From Desulfobacterales bacterium (GTDB taxonomy: Bacteria > Desulfobacterota > Desulfobacteria > Desulfobacterales > SKZT01), in assembly GCA_018399715.1 (NCBI GenBank), contig JAGYNR010000013.1:1-35585 (forward strand): a stretch of 35,585 nucleotides of DNA, read 5' to 3'. Under the pieces are notes generated by a model. It was not told the origin of the DNA. It worked only from the letters and a program-made list of their open reading frames with translations, and made no database searches. The first letter of the stretch is position 1, and each line of letters opens with the position of its first letter. Both the position numbers and the translations under genes were made by a program. Below are positions 26,967 through 34,947 of this stretch, in pieces.

Positions 26967-26983
26967 TTGGTTTGATTTTTGCA
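26967..26983 (+). promoter_or_regulatory. sigma54 (-24/-12) promoter
   Basis: TTGGTTTGATTTTTGCA: GG and GC dinucleotides separated by exactly 10 bp, fitting TTGGCACG-N4-TTGCA. Confidence 0.65.
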
Positions 26984-27014
26984 AAGTGCTTATGCCCGAT
27001 TGAGGAGAAATGGC

Positions 27015-27260
27015 TTGAAAAAAAATAAGGCAGACTATATACTCGATTTTCGTGGAAGTTTATCTTCAATATCTTTGCTGAAAATGAGCCGGATTTTCAA
27101 ACAGATGAAATCAAGGCAAGTGATGGAGATTTTAGGGTCGGATCCGGATCTTCAAAAGGATCTTTTTAAAGTTTTGCCGGAGTCATCTTACGATCTGGTT
27201 TTCATGAATATTGTGGATGAAGAAGATTATTATCGGGTACAAATCAGAAAACGGCAGTGA
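27015..27260 (+). CDS. TusA-like small protein lacking the catalytic CPxP motif
   Basis: DYILDFRGSLSSISLLKMSRIFKQMKSRQVMEILGSDPDLQKDLFKVLP has the TusA/SirA fold pattern; TTG start after GAGGAG (27002-27007). The track start at 26979 lies in the promoter. Confidence 0.7.
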   Translation: MKKNKADYILDFRGSLSSISLLKMSRIFKQMKSRQVMEILGSDPDLQKDLFKVLPESSYDLVFMNIVDEEDYYRVQIRKRQ

Positions 27261-27450: not shown

Positions 27451-27483
27451 CTTACGTAGTCAGAAATTAAAAAGGATGGAATG

Positions 27484-28806
27484 ATGTCAGAAGACGCAAT
27501 TAAAATTGAAGGTAAGAAAAAAAAGAGTTTGTTTATCGACAAGGTCCGCGAGATTCTACCGGATGGCGGAAACCTGAACATGTGCATTACTTGCGGTGCC
27601 TGTGCGTCAGGGTGTCCGGCGACCGGTCTGGAAAATATGGATCCTCGAAAATTTCTCAGAATGGCGGCTCTGGGGTTGGATGAAGAGATCACGAGTACGC
27701 CGTGGGTTTGGATGTGCACTGGTTGCCAGCGATGTATTTACGTCTGTCCCATGAAAATCAATATCCCGGAGCTGGTATATTATGCTCGGCAATCCTGGCC
27801 CAGAGAAGAAAGACCGAAAGGTATTCTGGGGTCTTGTGACATGGCGTTAAGAAATGATAGTTGCAGTGCAATGGGGGCATCTCCGGATGATTTTCAGTTT
27901 GTGGTCGAAGATGTCCTGGAGGAATACAGGGAGGCCCAGCCGGAATTTAAAGACATGGAAGCTCCCATTGATAAGGCCGGTGCTGAATTTTTTCTGAATC
28001 AAAATTCAAGGGAGCCGGTTACAGAACCCGATGAGATGGTTCCGTTATGGAAGATTCTTCACACGGTGGGGGTCGACTGGACCTATGGAAGCAAGGGATG
28101 GGGCGGCGAAAATTACTGTATGTTTTTAGCTGACGACGAAGCCTGGGAGCATGTGACCCGGACAGCACTCAATAAAGCCGATGAACTGGGATGTAAAATT
28201 TTTCTCAATACGGAGTGAGGGCACGTGACCTTCTCAGTCCTGGCAGGACTGAAAAAATTCAATATCGACCATAAATGTGAGGTCAAAAGCATCTATGAAT
28301 ATTATGCAAAATGGATCCGGGAAGGAAAACTTAAAGTTAATTCCGACTGGAACAAGGATTTGAAATTAAAGTTTACCGTTCAGGACCCTTGTCAGATCAT
28401 TCGTAAAAGCTACGGCGATCCGATTGCAGAAGATCTTCGCTTTGTGGTCAAATCAATCGTTGGAGAAGAAAATTTTATCGATATGACGCCCAACCGATCG
28501 AATAATTTTTGTTGCGGCGGTGGCGGCGGATTTCTTCAATCCGGATATGTGGATGCCCGTCGGGCCTATGGCAAAATAAAAGCAGATCAAATCCTTGCAA
28601 CCGGAGCCGATTACTGCATTGCGGCTTGCCACAACTGCCATGCCCAAATACATGATTTGGCTGAAGTAAATGACCATGCATGGCAAACTGTCCATTTGTG
28701 GACCATGATTTGCCTGTCGCTTGGAATTTTGGGCCCGAATGAACGGGAATATCTTGGAGATGATTTAAAAGAGGTAAATGTGTTTCATCCCGAAACGGCG
28801 CTATAA
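27484..28806 (+). CDS. HdrC-HdrB-like fused heterodisulfide reductase subunit with in-frame TGA (candidate Sec245), 440 aa
   Basis: N-terminal HdrC-type CxxCxxC..CP / CTGCQRCIYVCP; C-terminal CCG domain matches C-X39-CCG-X36-CXXC; TGA at 28216-28218 is the only interruption and both halves share one frame. Confidence 0.85.
28234..28252 (+). promoter_or_regulatory. candidate bacterial SECIS hairpin in the HdrC-HdrB-like gene
   Basis: TCAGTCCT-GGC-AGGACTGA, perfect 8-bp stem; loop starts 24 nt after the TGA. Confidence 0.65.
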
Positions 28807-28905
28807 ACCGAAACCGGTTTGGCGCCGACTCGAACTGTGACAAGAGATTGTCATTGTCCGTTCAAGATTGAAATAAATGTAATATTAATCCTAAACCGAT
28901 GAAAG

Positions 28906-31900
28906 ATGAAGACAGTTATGAATAGTCACAATGAATCTCAATCGAACAATAAGGTCCTTGTCATCGGCGGTGGCCTCGGTGGGATACGAACGGCTCTGGA
29001 TCTGGCTGAAGCAGGTCGCAATGTGGTCCTGGTGGAAAAGGATTTTTCAATCGGAGGGCTGATGACTCAGCTCGACCGGACTTTTCCGACCAATAATTGT
29101 GATCTGTGTACAATTTCTCCTTATTTGTCAGAAAGCGTTCGCCAGCTTCCTATCGAGTTTTTATCCATGACCCGGGTTACCGAAGTTGAAGGAGAAGCCG
29201 GTGATTTCACTGTTACACTCAATACGGCACCCAGGTATATCGATCTGGATAAATGTACGGCCTGTGGCGATTGTTATAACAAATTTCCGGAATGTGTTCG
29301 GTTTACCCCAGGACTGGATCATCGCGCACCTACCTGTATGCGGTATCCCCATGCGACACCCCAGGCATTTTCTGTTGACATGGCAAAATGTAATGATATT
29401 CAGCAGGTAGTTGATATATGTCCGGCCGGAGCCATCGTTCCCGATGATAAGGGAACAACACAACAAATTTCTTGCGGTGCCATTGTACTGGCAACCGGTG
29501 CCGGGATTTTTGATCCCAGCGGCCTGGACAATTTCGGGTATAAGAATCAACCCGATGTGGTCACCAGTCTGGAATATGAACGTATTCTGTCGGCCTCCGG
29601 TCCGACGCATGGATATCTTTTAAGACCTTCTGATAATGAAAAACCCAAGAAAATTGCATGGATACAATGCATTGGCTCCAGAGGGATGCAAAAAGGAGCC
29701 AGCTCCTACTGTTCAAGTGCCTGTTGTATGTTTGCGCTCAAGGAAGCCATCGTTACCAAAGAACGATTCGGAGAAGATATTGAAACTACGATTTTCTTCA
29801 TGGATATGCGGACATTTGGTAAAGATTATGAGTGCTACCTGGAAAGGGCGAAAAATGAATTCGGGATTCGATTAGTCCGTTGTCGTCCTCACAGTGTCAT
29901 TCAAAGGCCGGGTTCTAATGTGCTTTCCATCTCATTTGCACCTTTTGACAGGAGTGAGTTGGTAACCGAAGAGTTTGATATAGTAGTGCTTTCAACCGGA
30001 TTTAAAGTAGCGGAGGATGTGAAAAAGCTGGCCCAGGATATGGGTATCGAGCTCAATGAGCATAATTTCGCAAAAACCAGTAATTTTCAGCCGGTTTCGA
30101 CATCCCGCCCCGGTATATATGTCTGCGGCATGTTTGAAAGCCCGAAAGATATTCCGGAAACGTTGATACAAGGAAGCGCGGCGGCATGTATGGCATCGTC
30201 AAATATGCCCGCTCCTGAAAAAGCCCCTGCATCAGAAGAAGATTTTCCACCTGAAAAAGATGTTACAGGCCAGCCGCCTCGAATCGGTGTCTTTATCTGT
30301 GACTGTGGAAATAATATCGGCGGTGTTATTGATGTAGAAGAGTTGGCTGAATATGCAGGGAATTTGTCTGATGTGGCGGTATCAAAAAGCGTTGGACAGG
30401 GCTGTACTCAGGAATCCATGAAAGAAATTCAGGATCTCATTGTTTCTGAAGACCTCAACCGTGTTGTTATTGGCGGTACTTCACCGAGAACCGAGGAACT
30501 AAAGTTTCAGGACCTGCTTCGCAGAGCCGGACTTAATCCGTATTTACTTGAGATTGCTAACATCAGGGATCAGGTCGCATGGGTTCACGGCGACAATCCT
30601 GAAAATGCCCTTAAAAAGGCTAAAAGCTTAATTCAAATGGCGGTATGTGCCGTAAAGAAAAACCGGCCTTTGATAGAGCAAACGCTTCCCATGAATAAAG
30701 ATGTTCTGGTCGTAGGCGGTGGGGTCTCCGGTATGAGTTCTGCTTTGGCCTTGGCCGATCAGGGATTCAAAGTCTTTTTGGTTGAAAAGGAAGATAAGCT
30801 GGGTGGCTTTGCAAAGAATCTGCGAAAGACCCTGGAAGGTGAAGATGTGGCAGGGGCACTCGGGGAGATGATTGAAAAAACCCAAACCCATGAAAACATT
30901 GAGGTGATTACTGGTGCCAACCTGGTAGATCATACCGGAAAAACCGGTATGTTCAGAACTGGTATACAAATCGGGCCGGAAAAATCCTATCGCCAGATTG
31001 ATCATGGTGCCACTATTCTGGCAACCGGTACTCAACCGAATCGACCCGCCGAGTATCTTTTGGATCAACACGAGGCGGTCATGACCCAGGCAGATGCGGG
31101 GATATTTATCGAAGATTCTCCCGAAAAGGTAAAGGCCCTGGAAAATATCGTTATGATTCAGTGTGTTGGGTCTCGTTGTCCGGACAATCCCAACTGCTCT
31201 CGGATTTGCTGCCAGGCAGCCGTTAAAAATGCCTTGCATATTCTGGATATTAACCCGGATGCCCAAATTTTTGTGCTGTACCGGGATATGCGCACCTACG
31301 GATTCCAGGAAGATTATTATCGTAAGGCCCGGGAGAAAGGCGTGATATTTATTCGTTATGAAGTGGATGCCCCTCCCAATGTTGAAGCCAGTGGAGACAA
31401 AGTGAATGTCACGTTTGTTGATCCGATTTTAAATCGACCCCTGATGGTCACGGCTGACAAATTGTTGCTGAGCACCGGATTTAAAGTCGATCAAAAGGCT
31501 ACAGAGCGTCTGGCACGAATTTTTAAACTTCCGAGAACCCATGATGGCTATTTTCTGGAGGAGCATGTTAAACTTCGGCCCATCGATCTTCCGGTTCCCG
31601 GATGTTTTGTCGCCGGAACAGCGCATAGCCCGAGACTGATTCGGGAAAGTATTGCCCAGGCACAGGCCGCAGCATCTAGAGTTCAAACCATATTGGCCAA
31701 AGACGTGATCCACTTAAGTCCGGTAGTGGCTCAGGTGGATGGAGATAAATGCGCAGCATGTCTGGTTTGTGTCCGGGCCTGTCCATTTAATGTACCGTAT
31801 ATTAATGCTGATGGTTATTCAGAAATTGATCCTGCCAAGTGTCATGGATGCGGTATTTGCGCTGCTGAATGCCCGGCAAAGGCCATTCAGCTCATGAAGT

Positions 31901-31959
31901 TTGAGGATGACCAGATTATGGCGAAATTAGAAGGACTTTTTGAAAGGAAGGTTGCCTGA
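28906..31959 (+). CDS. hdrA: large HdrA-like FAD/Fe-S protein with two thioredoxin-reductase-like halves
   Basis: VLVIGGGLGGIRTALDLAEAG and DVLVVGGGVSGMSSALALADQG nucleotide-binding motifs; central HdrA-NTD-like FICDCGNNIGGVIDVEEL; C-terminal 2x[4Fe-4S] ferredoxin. Confidence 0.92.
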   Translation: MKTVMNSHNESQSNNKVLVIGGGLGGIRTALDLAEAGRNVVLVEKDFSIGGLMTQLDRTFPTNNCDLCTISPYLSESVRQLPIEFLSMTRVTEVEGEAGDFTVTLNTAPRYIDLDKCTACGDCYNKFPECVRFTPGLDHRAPTCMRYPHATPQAFSVDMAKCNDIQQVVDICPAGAIVPDDKGTTQQISCGAIVLATGAGIFDPSGLDNFGYKNQPDVVTSLEYERILSASGPTHGYLLRPSDNEKPKKIAWIQCIGSRGMQKGASSYCSSACCMFALKEAIVTKERFGEDIETTIFFMDMRTFGKDYECYLERAKNEFGIRLVRCRPHSVIQRPGSNVLSISFAPFDRSELVTEEFDIVVLSTGFKVAEDVKKLAQDMGIELNEHNFAKTSNFQPVSTSRPGIYVCGMFESPKDIPETLIQGSAAACMASSNMPAPEKAPASEEDFPPEKDVTGQPPRIGVFICDCGNNIGGVIDVEELAEYAGNLSDVAVSKSVGQGCTQESMKEIQDLIVSEDLNRVVIGGTSPRTEELKFQDLLRRAGLNPYLLEIANIRDQVAWVHGDNPENALKKAKSLIQMAVCAVKKNRPLIEQTLPMNKDVLVVGGGVSGMSSALALADQGFKVFLVEKEDKLGGFAKNLRKTLEGEDVAGALGEMIEKTQTHENIEVITGANLVDHTGKTGMFRTGIQIGPEKSYRQIDHGATILATGTQPNRPAEYLLDQHEAVMTQADAGIFIEDSPEKVKALENIVMIQCVGSRCPDNPNCSRICCQAAVKNALHILDINPDAQIFVLYRDMRTYGFQEDYYRKAREKGVIFIRYEVDAPPNVEASGDKVNVTFVDPILNRPLMVTADKLLLSTGFKVDQKATERLARIFKLPRTHDGYFLEEHVKLRPIDLPVPGCFVAGTAHSPRLIRESIAQAQAAASRVQTILAKDVIHLSPVVAQVDGDKCAACLVCVRACPFNVPYINADGYSEIDPAKCHGCGICAAECPAKAIQLMKFEDDQIMAKLEGLFERKVA

Positions 31960-32399
31960 TGGAAAATTTTGAACCGATAATTGTCGCCTTCTGTTGCCAA
32001 TATTGTCCCTATACGGCAGCGGATACTGCAGGAACCCAGCGGCTTTGTTACCCGGCCAATTTAAAAATTATTCGGGTTCCCTGTGCAGGAAAGGTTGACG
32101 CAATGCATATTCTAAAAGCCTTCGAAAAGGGAGCGGATGGCGTTGTTGTGGCCGCATGCCTGGAAGGAGACTGTCATTTTGAAACCGGCAACATAAAGGC
32201 CGCACGACGTGTGTCTTATATCAAAAAGCTCATGGAAGAAATCGGAGTTGAAGGAGAGCGTCTTGAAATGGTTATGTTGTCCGCTGGAATGGGGGATCGT
32301 TTTGCCGAAATGGCAACGGAAGTGACGGAAAAAATCCGTAAACTGGGTCCTAGTCCTATCAATCTCAACACTTCTTCCCAAAAACAGGAAGCGTGTTGA
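31959..32399 (+). CDS. mvhD: MvhD-like methyl-viologen-reducing hydrogenase delta subunit
   Basis: IVAFCCQYCPYTAADTAGTQR; VVAACLEGDCHFETGNIKA; start overlaps hdrA stop (TGATG). Confidence 0.9.
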   Translation: MENFEPIIVAFCCQYCPYTAADTAGTQRLCYPANLKIIRVPCAGKVDAMHILKAFEKGADGVVVAACLEGDCHFETGNIKAARRVSYIKKLMEEIGVEGERLEMVMLSAGMGDRFAEMATEVTEKIRKLGPSPINLNTSSQKQEAC

Positions 32400-32427
32400 G
32401 CATATCCATAAAGGAGAGTGAACAAAG

Positions 32428-33096
32428 ATGATCACTGCTGAAAGAAAACCTTTAGAAGAGTTAATTGAATATGTCCGTCCCTATGATCGCATCCTTTTGG
32501 TAGGCTGCAACGAGTGTGTGACGGTCTGTGCGGCCGGAGGGCGAAAGGAAGTCGGACTTTTGGCTTCAGCGCTGAAGATGGCCTTTGCAAAAGAAGGTAA
32601 AACTATTGATATCAAGGAATTAACGCTTGAAAGACAGTGTGATCCCGAATATATCGAAGAGTTGGTGCCTCATATCGAAGATGTGGATGCAGTTATGTCC
32701 ATGGCCTGCGGATGCGGCGTCCAGGAAATTGCCAAACGCTTCAAAAATATACCGGTGTTTCCCGCTGTGAACACAAAGTTTATGGGAGCTTCGGAACAAC
32801 AGGGAATTTGGGCCGAACGATGTCAGGGATGCGGAGATTGTCTTCTGGGACTTACCGGGGGCATATGTCCCATCGCCCGATGCTCCAAGCACCTGATGAA
32901 CGGGCCTTGCGGCGGATCTACGAACGGTAAATGTGAAATCAGTCCGGATGTCGATTGTGTCTGGCAATTGATATGGGACAGGCTCAAAGCTTTGGGTATG
33001 GAAGACCGATATGAAGAAATAATACCCGCCAAAGATTGGCGAACAGCCGGGGGCGGTGGTCCACGAAAGATAATAAGGGAGGATTTGGCAGAATGA
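32428..33096 (+). CDS. metV: MetV-like methylenetetrahydrofolate reductase C-terminal-type zinc/Fe-S protein
   Basis: RILLVGCNECVTVCAAGGRKEVG, ERCQGCGDCLLGLTGGICPIARCSKHLMNGPCGGSTNGKCE. Confidence 0.88.
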   Translation: MITAERKPLEELIEYVRPYDRILLVGCNECVTVCAAGGRKEVGLLASALKMAFAKEGKTIDIKELTLERQCDPEYIEELVPHIEDVDAVMSMACGCGVQEIAKRFKNIPVFPAVNTKFMGASEQQGIWAERCQGCGDCLLGLTGGICPIARCSKHLMNGPCGGSTNGKCEISPDVDCVWQLIWDRLKALGMEDRYEEIIPAKDWRTAGGGGPRKIIREDLAE

Positions 33097-34019
33097 AAAC
33101 CGAAAGCGTATTGGAAAAAGTCTTAGCATCAGGTAATCTTGCGGTTACTTCGGAATGTGGCCCTCCCAGAGGAACAAATGCGGAGATCATTAAAGCAAAG
33201 GGTGAACTGCTCAAGGGGAAAGTTGATGCTGTCAATGTTACGGATAATCAGACAGCTATGGTCCGCATGTCAAGTTTTGCAGCGAATGTTTTTTTAAAAC
33301 AGGCGGGATTAAATCCAATTTTACAAATGGTCACCCGGGATCGGAATCGACTTGCCATGCAGGCGGATATTCTTGGCGCATATGCCCACGGAATTAATAC
33401 AATGCTTTGTTTGTCAGGCGATCATCCCAGTTTTGGAGATCATCCCATGGCGGCCAACGTTCATGATATTGATTCTGTTCAGTTTATTCAGATGGTCAAG
33501 AAAATGCGCGATGAAGGTAAATTCCAGGGAGGTGCAGATATCGATAATCCTCCTAAGATGTTTATCGGTGCCGCGGCCAACCCTTTTGCTGACCCGTTTG
33601 AGCTTCGGGTCGCCCGCCTGGCTAAAAAAGTGGCTGCCGGTGTGGATTTTATTCAGACCCAATGTATTTATAATCTGGATAAATTTGAAAAATGGATGGA
33701 AGGCGTTCGGGCTCGGGGGCTTCATGAAAAATGTTATATATTGGCAGGTGTAACCCCAATGAAATCGGCGGGTATGGCACGTTACATGAAAAATAAGGTC
33801 CCGGGAATGGATGTTCCTGATGAAGTTGTCAAACGAATGGCCGGTGTTCCCAAGGAAAAAATGGCTGATGAGGGCATTGATATCTGTGTTGAAAGTATTC
33901 AGCGATTAAAAGAAGTCGAGGGTGTCGCTGGTTTCCATATTATGGCCATTGAATGGGAAAAAAAGGTGCCGGAGATTGTTGAAAGAGCGGGACTTTTGCC
34001 GAGGCCCACGGTCTCATAA
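33093..34019 (+). CDS. metF: methylenetetrahydrofolate reductase
   Basis: VTSECGPPRGTNAE, AVNVTDNQ, GAAANPFADPFELRVARLAKKVAAGVDFIQTQ; ATGA overlap with metV. Confidence 0.92.
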   Translation: MKTESVLEKVLASGNLAVTSECGPPRGTNAEIIKAKGELLKGKVDAVNVTDNQTAMVRMSSFAANVFLKQAGLNPILQMVTRDRNRLAMQADILGAYAHGINTMLCLSGDHPSFGDHPMAANVHDIDSVQFIQMVKKMRDEGKFQGGADIDNPPKMFIGAAANPFADPFELRVARLAKKVAAGVDFIQTQCIYNLDKFEKWMEGVRARGLHEKCYILAGVTPMKSAGMARYMKNKVPGMDVPDEVVKRMAGVPKEKMADEGIDICVESIQRLKEVEGVAGFHIMAIEWEKKVPEIVERAGLLPRPTVS

Positions 34020-34182: not shown

Positions 34183-34947
34183 ATGAAAATATCGGTATGC
34201 GGGAAAGGGGGAAGCGGAAAAAGTACGGTAACGGCATTACTTGCAAGACAGGCCCTGGGAAAAAAACGGGCGGTGCTGGTGGTAGATGCTGATGATTCAA
34301 ATTCGGGTCTTTTCAGAATGCTTCGTTTTGATGATCCGCCGGCGCCCCTGATGGATCTGGCGGGTGGTCGAGCCGGGATAAAAGGAAAAATGAAAAGCAA
34401 TGCCTTACTGACCCGGAAAGAAATTCATATACAGGATATCCCCACTGAATACATAAAAAAAAATGATGGGCTGATGCATGTTAGAATCGGCAAAATTCTC
34501 CAGGCTCTAGAAGGATGTGCCTGTCCGATGGGAGCATTGAGTCGGGAATTTTTGAAAAAACTTTGCCTTGATACCGACGAAATTGCAATTGTTGATATGG
34601 AGGCAGGTATAGAACATTTTGGAAGAGGAGTTGATGAAGCTGTGGATCATGTTCTCATCGTCATTGAACCGTCTTATGAATCTGTAACGATGGCTGAAAA
34701 AATTGCTGAACTTTCTGCCGGGATGAAAAGAGATGTTTCGGCAATTTTGAATAAAATTCCTTCAAAGGCAATTGCTGATAAAGTAAAAGATAAACTCAAT
34801 GCAAACGGTATACCTGTTATCGGTACCATTTCTAATGATCCCCAGGTGTTCGATGCATGCCTGGAAGGTCTGGCACCTGAAAAAGGTCAGGCGTTTGATG
34901 AGGCCGGAAAGATACTGGATATGCTTTTATCAAAAAAGGTGTTATAA
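34183..34947 (+). CDS. cooC: CooC-like nickel-insertion P-loop ATPase for CO dehydrogenase
   Basis: MKISVCGKGGSGKSTVTALLARQA, deviant Walker A; CACPMGALSREFL; DMEAGIEHFGRGVDEAVD. Confidence 0.88.
   Translation: MKISVCGKGGSGKSTVTALLARQALGKKRAVLVVDADDSNSGLFRMLRFDDPPAPLMDLAGGRAGIKGKMKSNALLTRKEIHIQDIPTEYIKKNDGLMHVRIGKILQALEGCACPMGALSREFLKKLCLDTDEIAIVDMEAGIEHFGRGVDEAVDHVLIVIEPSYESVTMAEKIAELSAGMKRDVSAILNKIPSKAIADKVKDKLNANGIPVIGTISNDPQVFDACLEGLAPEKGQAFDEAGKILDMLLSKKVL

Follow-up and report, generated by a model that had tools for sequence, protein, structure and literature searches.

A selenocysteine-encoding HdrC-HdrB fusion gene at the head of an hdrA-mvhD-metV-metF cluster in a Desulfobacterales genome

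The hdrCB gene and its neighbours

The window, which is the whole stretch of 35,585 nucleotides analysed here (contig JAGYNR010000013.1 of assembly GCA_018399715.1), comes from a Desulfobacterales genome that is 77% complete and spread over 243 contigs. A cluster with the order hdrCB-hdrA-mvhD-metV-metF occupies positions 27484-34019 of the forward strand, and the gene studied here is its first member (27484-28806, with ATG 27481 as an alternative start). Under genetic code table 11, this region is read as two open reading frames, 27481-28218 and 28225-28806. The sequence-only reading had treated the two as one frame split solely by the TGA at 28216-28218, and the readthrough translation agrees. 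When TGA is translated as U, positions 27484-28806 give a single protein of 440 amino acids with one U, at residue 245, in the context KIFLNTE-U-GHVTFSVLAGLKKFN. The single-protein reading is likewise supported by Pfam and by full-length homologues. When both strands of the window were scanned, no other TGA with a comparable context was found, and an Rfam search of the window returned no match.

Pfam identifies Fer4_8 and CCG domains in the readthrough protein. The N-terminal part is an HdrC-type ferredoxin domain for two cubane [4Fe-4S] clusters, with the eight cysteines C34, C37, C40, C44, C78, C81, C84, and C88. The C-terminal part is a CCG domain with the five cysteines of a noncubane [4Fe-4S] cluster (C303, C343, C344, C382, and C385), and its motif is as intact as had been described from the letters, namely C303-X39-C343-C344-G345-X36-C382-X2-C385. 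Two complete CX31-39CCX35-36CXXC motifs, as in HdrB, are absent; the C-terminal one is complete, while the N-terminal CCG half has lost the other second-cluster cysteines and retains only E-Sec245-G-His247, a site read as E-U/C-G-H among homologues. The best named NCBIfam models are HmcF (164 bits, cut-off 750), TmcB (158, cut-off 735), and DsrK (118, cut-off 400). None of these equivalog cut-offs is reached, and the HdrC and HdrB models also match. The protein is therefore described as an HdrC-HdrB fusion of the GlpC/DsrK type.

The four genes that follow are all on the forward strand. An HdrA-like flavoprotein with two HdrA-like halves and no in-frame UGA is encoded at 28906-31959 (NCBIfam HdrA2, 5e-250; also Pfam). 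It is followed by an MvhD/VhuD-like subunit in the Cys form at 31959-32399 (NCBIfam VhuD, 7.8e-49; Pfam FlpD, 1.5e-49), a MetV-type protein with the MTHFR C-terminal domain at 32428-33096 (Pfam DUF5981, 3.1e-39), and the methylenetetrahydrofolate reductase MetF at 33069-34019, whose start is uncertain (Pfam MTHFR, 2e-40). Downstream of metF, a gene for a CooC-like P-loop ATPase was found at 34183-34947 on the forward strand (Pfam CbiA), which is consistent with carbon monoxide dehydrogenase maturation. Directly 5' of the hdrCB gene, at 26979-27260 (+), lies a gene for a TusA-like protein without the usual catalytic Cys (Pfam TusA 28.5 bits, cut-off 28.6). TusA-like genes were matched directly upstream at 8 of 80 named loci, and the Cys is absent from its usual place in the four examined at full length (L144, L162, L166, and L172) and in L163.

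The linkage of hdrA, mvhD, metV, and metF recurs in cultured relatives and named genomes. Both metV and metF were present within the retrieved flank of the Sec or Cys form of the gene at 26 of the 80 named loci. Desulfoprunum, Desulforhopalus, Desulfosediminicola, and Desulfofustis share the arrangement hdrCB(Sec), a second metF-like gene, hdrA, mvhD, metV, and metF. In relatives, this second MetF-like gene, of 290 amino acids, separates the Sec gene from hdrA (L162:7318-8353, L174:7318-8307, and L163:4651-5566); it is absent from the window. Since many homologues are found elsewhere than beside hdrA and metVF, the subunit has no fixed set of partners, and the copies apart from hdrA indicate that it is a module occurring in several contexts.

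Selenocysteine at the in-frame UGA

The same-order search covered 292 genomes, 173 of them of high quality. A close homologue was found in 211 of the 292 and in 129 of the 173, and all same-order matches listed carry one in-frame TGA. Across the phylum, a homologue was found in 116 of 394 genomes; most of these matches, including ones of about 33% identity, contain a single TGA, and some contain none. A further 60 regions were retrieved and their matches aligned, which gave a phylum-wide set of 104 distinct homologous genes. At column 245, these genes have U in 82 cases, C in 22, and no other residue. The 80 named-genome loci, which overlap partly with the 104-gene set, have U in 77 cases and C in the other 3. 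The sequence-only reading had expected a conserved Cys at this position, in an ECGH or CxxC-like context; homologues do have Cys or Sec there, and the ECGH motif is right. The motif E-[U/C]-G-H is near-universal, with ECAH in a few Cys forms, and the DsrK of the window genome itself carries GGECGH (L004) and its HmcF/TmcB-like protein GECGH (L002). Proteins of as little as 27% identity show no variation at E244, C/U245, or H247, nor at the eight ferredoxin and the five CCG cysteines. The Cys forms are single proteins without interruption.

A SECIS-like hairpin, the element expected downstream of such a codon, was found at 28234-28252 (+), 15 nucleotides after the UGA. It has the stem TCAGTCCT/AGGACTGA and the loop GGC, folds at -11.2 kcal/mol, and is conserved in the Sec forms, where the stem is kept through two-sided changes such as CAGTCC/GGACTG, CAACCC/GGGTTG, and CAATCC/GGATTG. 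Stem pairing was compared with a null in which synonymous codons were shuffled with each gene's own codon usage. The 82 Sec forms have on average 6.27 of 7 stem pairs against 3.96 under shuffling. This fixed seven-pair register scores the remotest Sec forms too low: below 45% identity the mean is 4.0 of 7, since several of these genes have a longer loop and a stem in a shifted position. For the 22 Cys forms, the values are 3.41 of 7 against 3.05; the hairpin is lost from almost all of them. In 48 close Sec genes, sites that share a residue have a codon identity of 0.75-0.78 over the twenty codons starting at the UGA and of 0.38-0.59 elsewhere. One Cys form (L095:3104-4348, +), with TGC, retains a strong SECIS-like hairpin after that codon and looks like a recent Sec-to-Cys change.

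These data also bear on two other explanations of the interrupted frame. If two proteins were made, an HdrC-like one would end at the UGA at 28216 and an HdrB-like C-terminal one would restart at GTG 28225. The GGAG from which this restart had been considered is indeed present a few bases 5' of the GTG. However, a possible start codon occurs at this site in just 11 of the 82 Sec-form genes and a GGAG near the UGA in just 15; the residue at the GTG site varies among Sec forms (V, A, E, M, I, or G), the Cys forms are uninterrupted, and the hairpin is conserved. The restart was rejected as very improbable. A nonsense mutation or a sequencing error affecting a gene whose usual residue is Cys was considered as well, since TGA is one base away from both TGC and TGT and the draft assembly is fragmented. 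It was likewise rejected as very improbable: most genomes of the order share this TGA, as do several isolates (for example Desulfoprunum benzoelyticum DSM 28570), and the downstream sequence shows no decay. The in-frame UGA, judged from these comparisons, almost certainly encodes selenocysteine, as does its counterpart in most related sulfate reducers.

The decoding genes that would go with such a codon were found in part. In the window genome, selA (604.9 bits), selB (383.6), and tRNA-Sec (78.7) each score above the cut-off, as the proposal of selenocysteine had led one to expect; selD was not found in this 77% complete genome, and the weak match there resembles ThiL. A selD gene was present in each of the 16 near-complete relatives tested, among them both members of the same family, and this selD nearly always carries an in-frame TGA too. 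The gap is most simply explained by the incomplete assembly. Of 27 genomes examined that have Sec or Cys forms, 26 contain tRNA-Sec, so Cys forms occur in Sec-using bacteria as well. A second tRNA-Sec match, weaker than the first and above the gathering score, was seen in six genomes (G049, G378, G401, G404, G606, and G610), possibly a second tRNA-Sec or an unusual related tRNA.

Predicted placement of residue 245 beside a noncubane cluster

The AlphaFold model of the Sec protein has a mean pLDDT of 85.7 and a pTM of 0.86. Its best fold match is EtfD (9ojn), with a TM score of 0.63 by query length, followed by HdrB. U245 lies between a strand and a helix in the model, and C382 is placed likewise in the other CCG half. 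When the family profile was aligned with EtfD, column 245 fell on Cys581 and H247 on His583. According to the EtfD structure paper (PMC13083937), His583 ligates the noncubane cluster and Cys581 ligates a linear [3Fe-4S] cluster. By this alignment, Sec245 would match a cluster-ligand Cys and stand two residues before a noncubane-ligating His, which supports the suggestion, already made from the letters, of a Sec near a noncubane [4Fe-4S] site. The remaining linear-cluster cysteines of EtfD are not conserved in the Sec family. We infer that the subunit holds a single noncubane cluster and that Sec lies next to the histidine that ligates it. EtfD differs in having the linear [3Fe-4S] cluster in its N-terminal CCG half and in having a membrane part.

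DsrK, HmcF, and TmcB, the best NCBIfam matches, share the ECGH motif and one complete CCG motif with the Sec protein. The Sec protein, however, scores far below their equivalog cut-offs, and its gene lies in a soluble hdrA/metF neighbourhood and not in that of a membrane complex.

Relation to known selenoproteins and proposed role

The sequence-only reading implied that selenocysteine at this position was new, and here it has to be corrected. A Fe-S oxidoreductase-like selenoprotein family (GlpC) with the motif UGH is listed in a 2026 review (PMC13188914), Sec in this GlpC / Fe-S oxidoreductase-like family had been catalogued by 2006 (PMC1794560), and a Sec-containing hdrD4 is listed in the genome paper of Desulfobacterium autotrophicum (PMC2702500). 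The window's gene agrees with the published GlpC family (COG0247/PTHR43551; reference WP_174406253.1) in motif, protein type, and gene context as published: UGH in a GlpC-type Fe-S protein (here TEUGH, residues 243-247), occurrence in Thermodesulfobacteriota, and adjoining hdrA and mvhD/frhD genes (PMC13188914, PMC1794560). Since Sec in this family is already known, the gene is a firm addition to it. The published operons contain frhG-frhA hydrogenase genes, whereas the window's cluster ends in metV-metF. A limited literature search found no linkage of the Sec form to metVF in the parts of the published accounts that it covered.

The second comparison is with the MetFV-HdrABC-MvhD complex described for Moorella thermoacetica (PMC10553843). 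HdrC/HdrB, HdrA, MvhD, MetV, and MetF are encoded together there, and at the level of genes alone the same set (hdrC, hdrB, hdrA, mvhD, metV, and metF) is found at 27484-34019 of the window. The window differs in that its HdrC and HdrB are fused, DsrK-like, and have one conserved CCG motif together with Sec.

Our main reading, to which we give a probability of about 0.9, is that one polypeptide is made, with the UGA read as selenocysteine through SelB, tRNA-Sec, and the hairpin, and that it is a fused HdrC-HdrB electron-transfer subunit. The coding of Sec, the domain composition, and the recurrence of the gene cluster are shown computationally, whereas ligation of the clusters, assembly of a complex, the function of Sec, and the substrate are deduced. 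SelB and tRNA-Sec would decode the UGA at 28216-28218, directed by the hairpin at 28234-28252. His247 would be a ligand of the noncubane cluster, as the EtfD alignment predicts, and Sec245 would take the place of the Cys that holds the second cluster in EtfD. The HdrCB subunit most likely works with the HdrA, MvhD, MetV, and MetF encoded next door. Electrons would pass between the HdrA flavin and a thiol/disulfide or a protein partner at the noncubane cluster, where Sec245 may serve as a redox-active or cluster-side selenol.

The Sec assignment could also be right while the subunit is an electron wire only. His247 would then cap the noncubane cluster, and Sec would tune the cluster or its stability without disulfide chemistry. 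The adjoining genes, which encode electron-transfer and C1 enzymes, are in keeping with such a wire, but Sec is costly and is usually retained where a redox-active selenol pays. The match of H247 with His583 of EtfD, which completes a coordination said to make the cluster non-catalytic (PMC13083937), favours the wire, while the predicted interaction of the related TmcB with DsrC (PMC10553843) argues against it. We judge a wire-only role possible but the less probable course.

With selenocysteine as the preferred reading of the UGA, a gene that is readily mis-split codes for a single selenoprotein in most of the relatives sampled in the order, where annotating it as two genes is wrong. The reading places Sec beside a residue predicted to ligate the noncubane cluster, and the subunit concerned is linked to methylene-tetrahydrofolate reductase. 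In cultured species it may thus be tested which second electron partner MetFV-HdrABC-type complexes use and whether it needs selenium.
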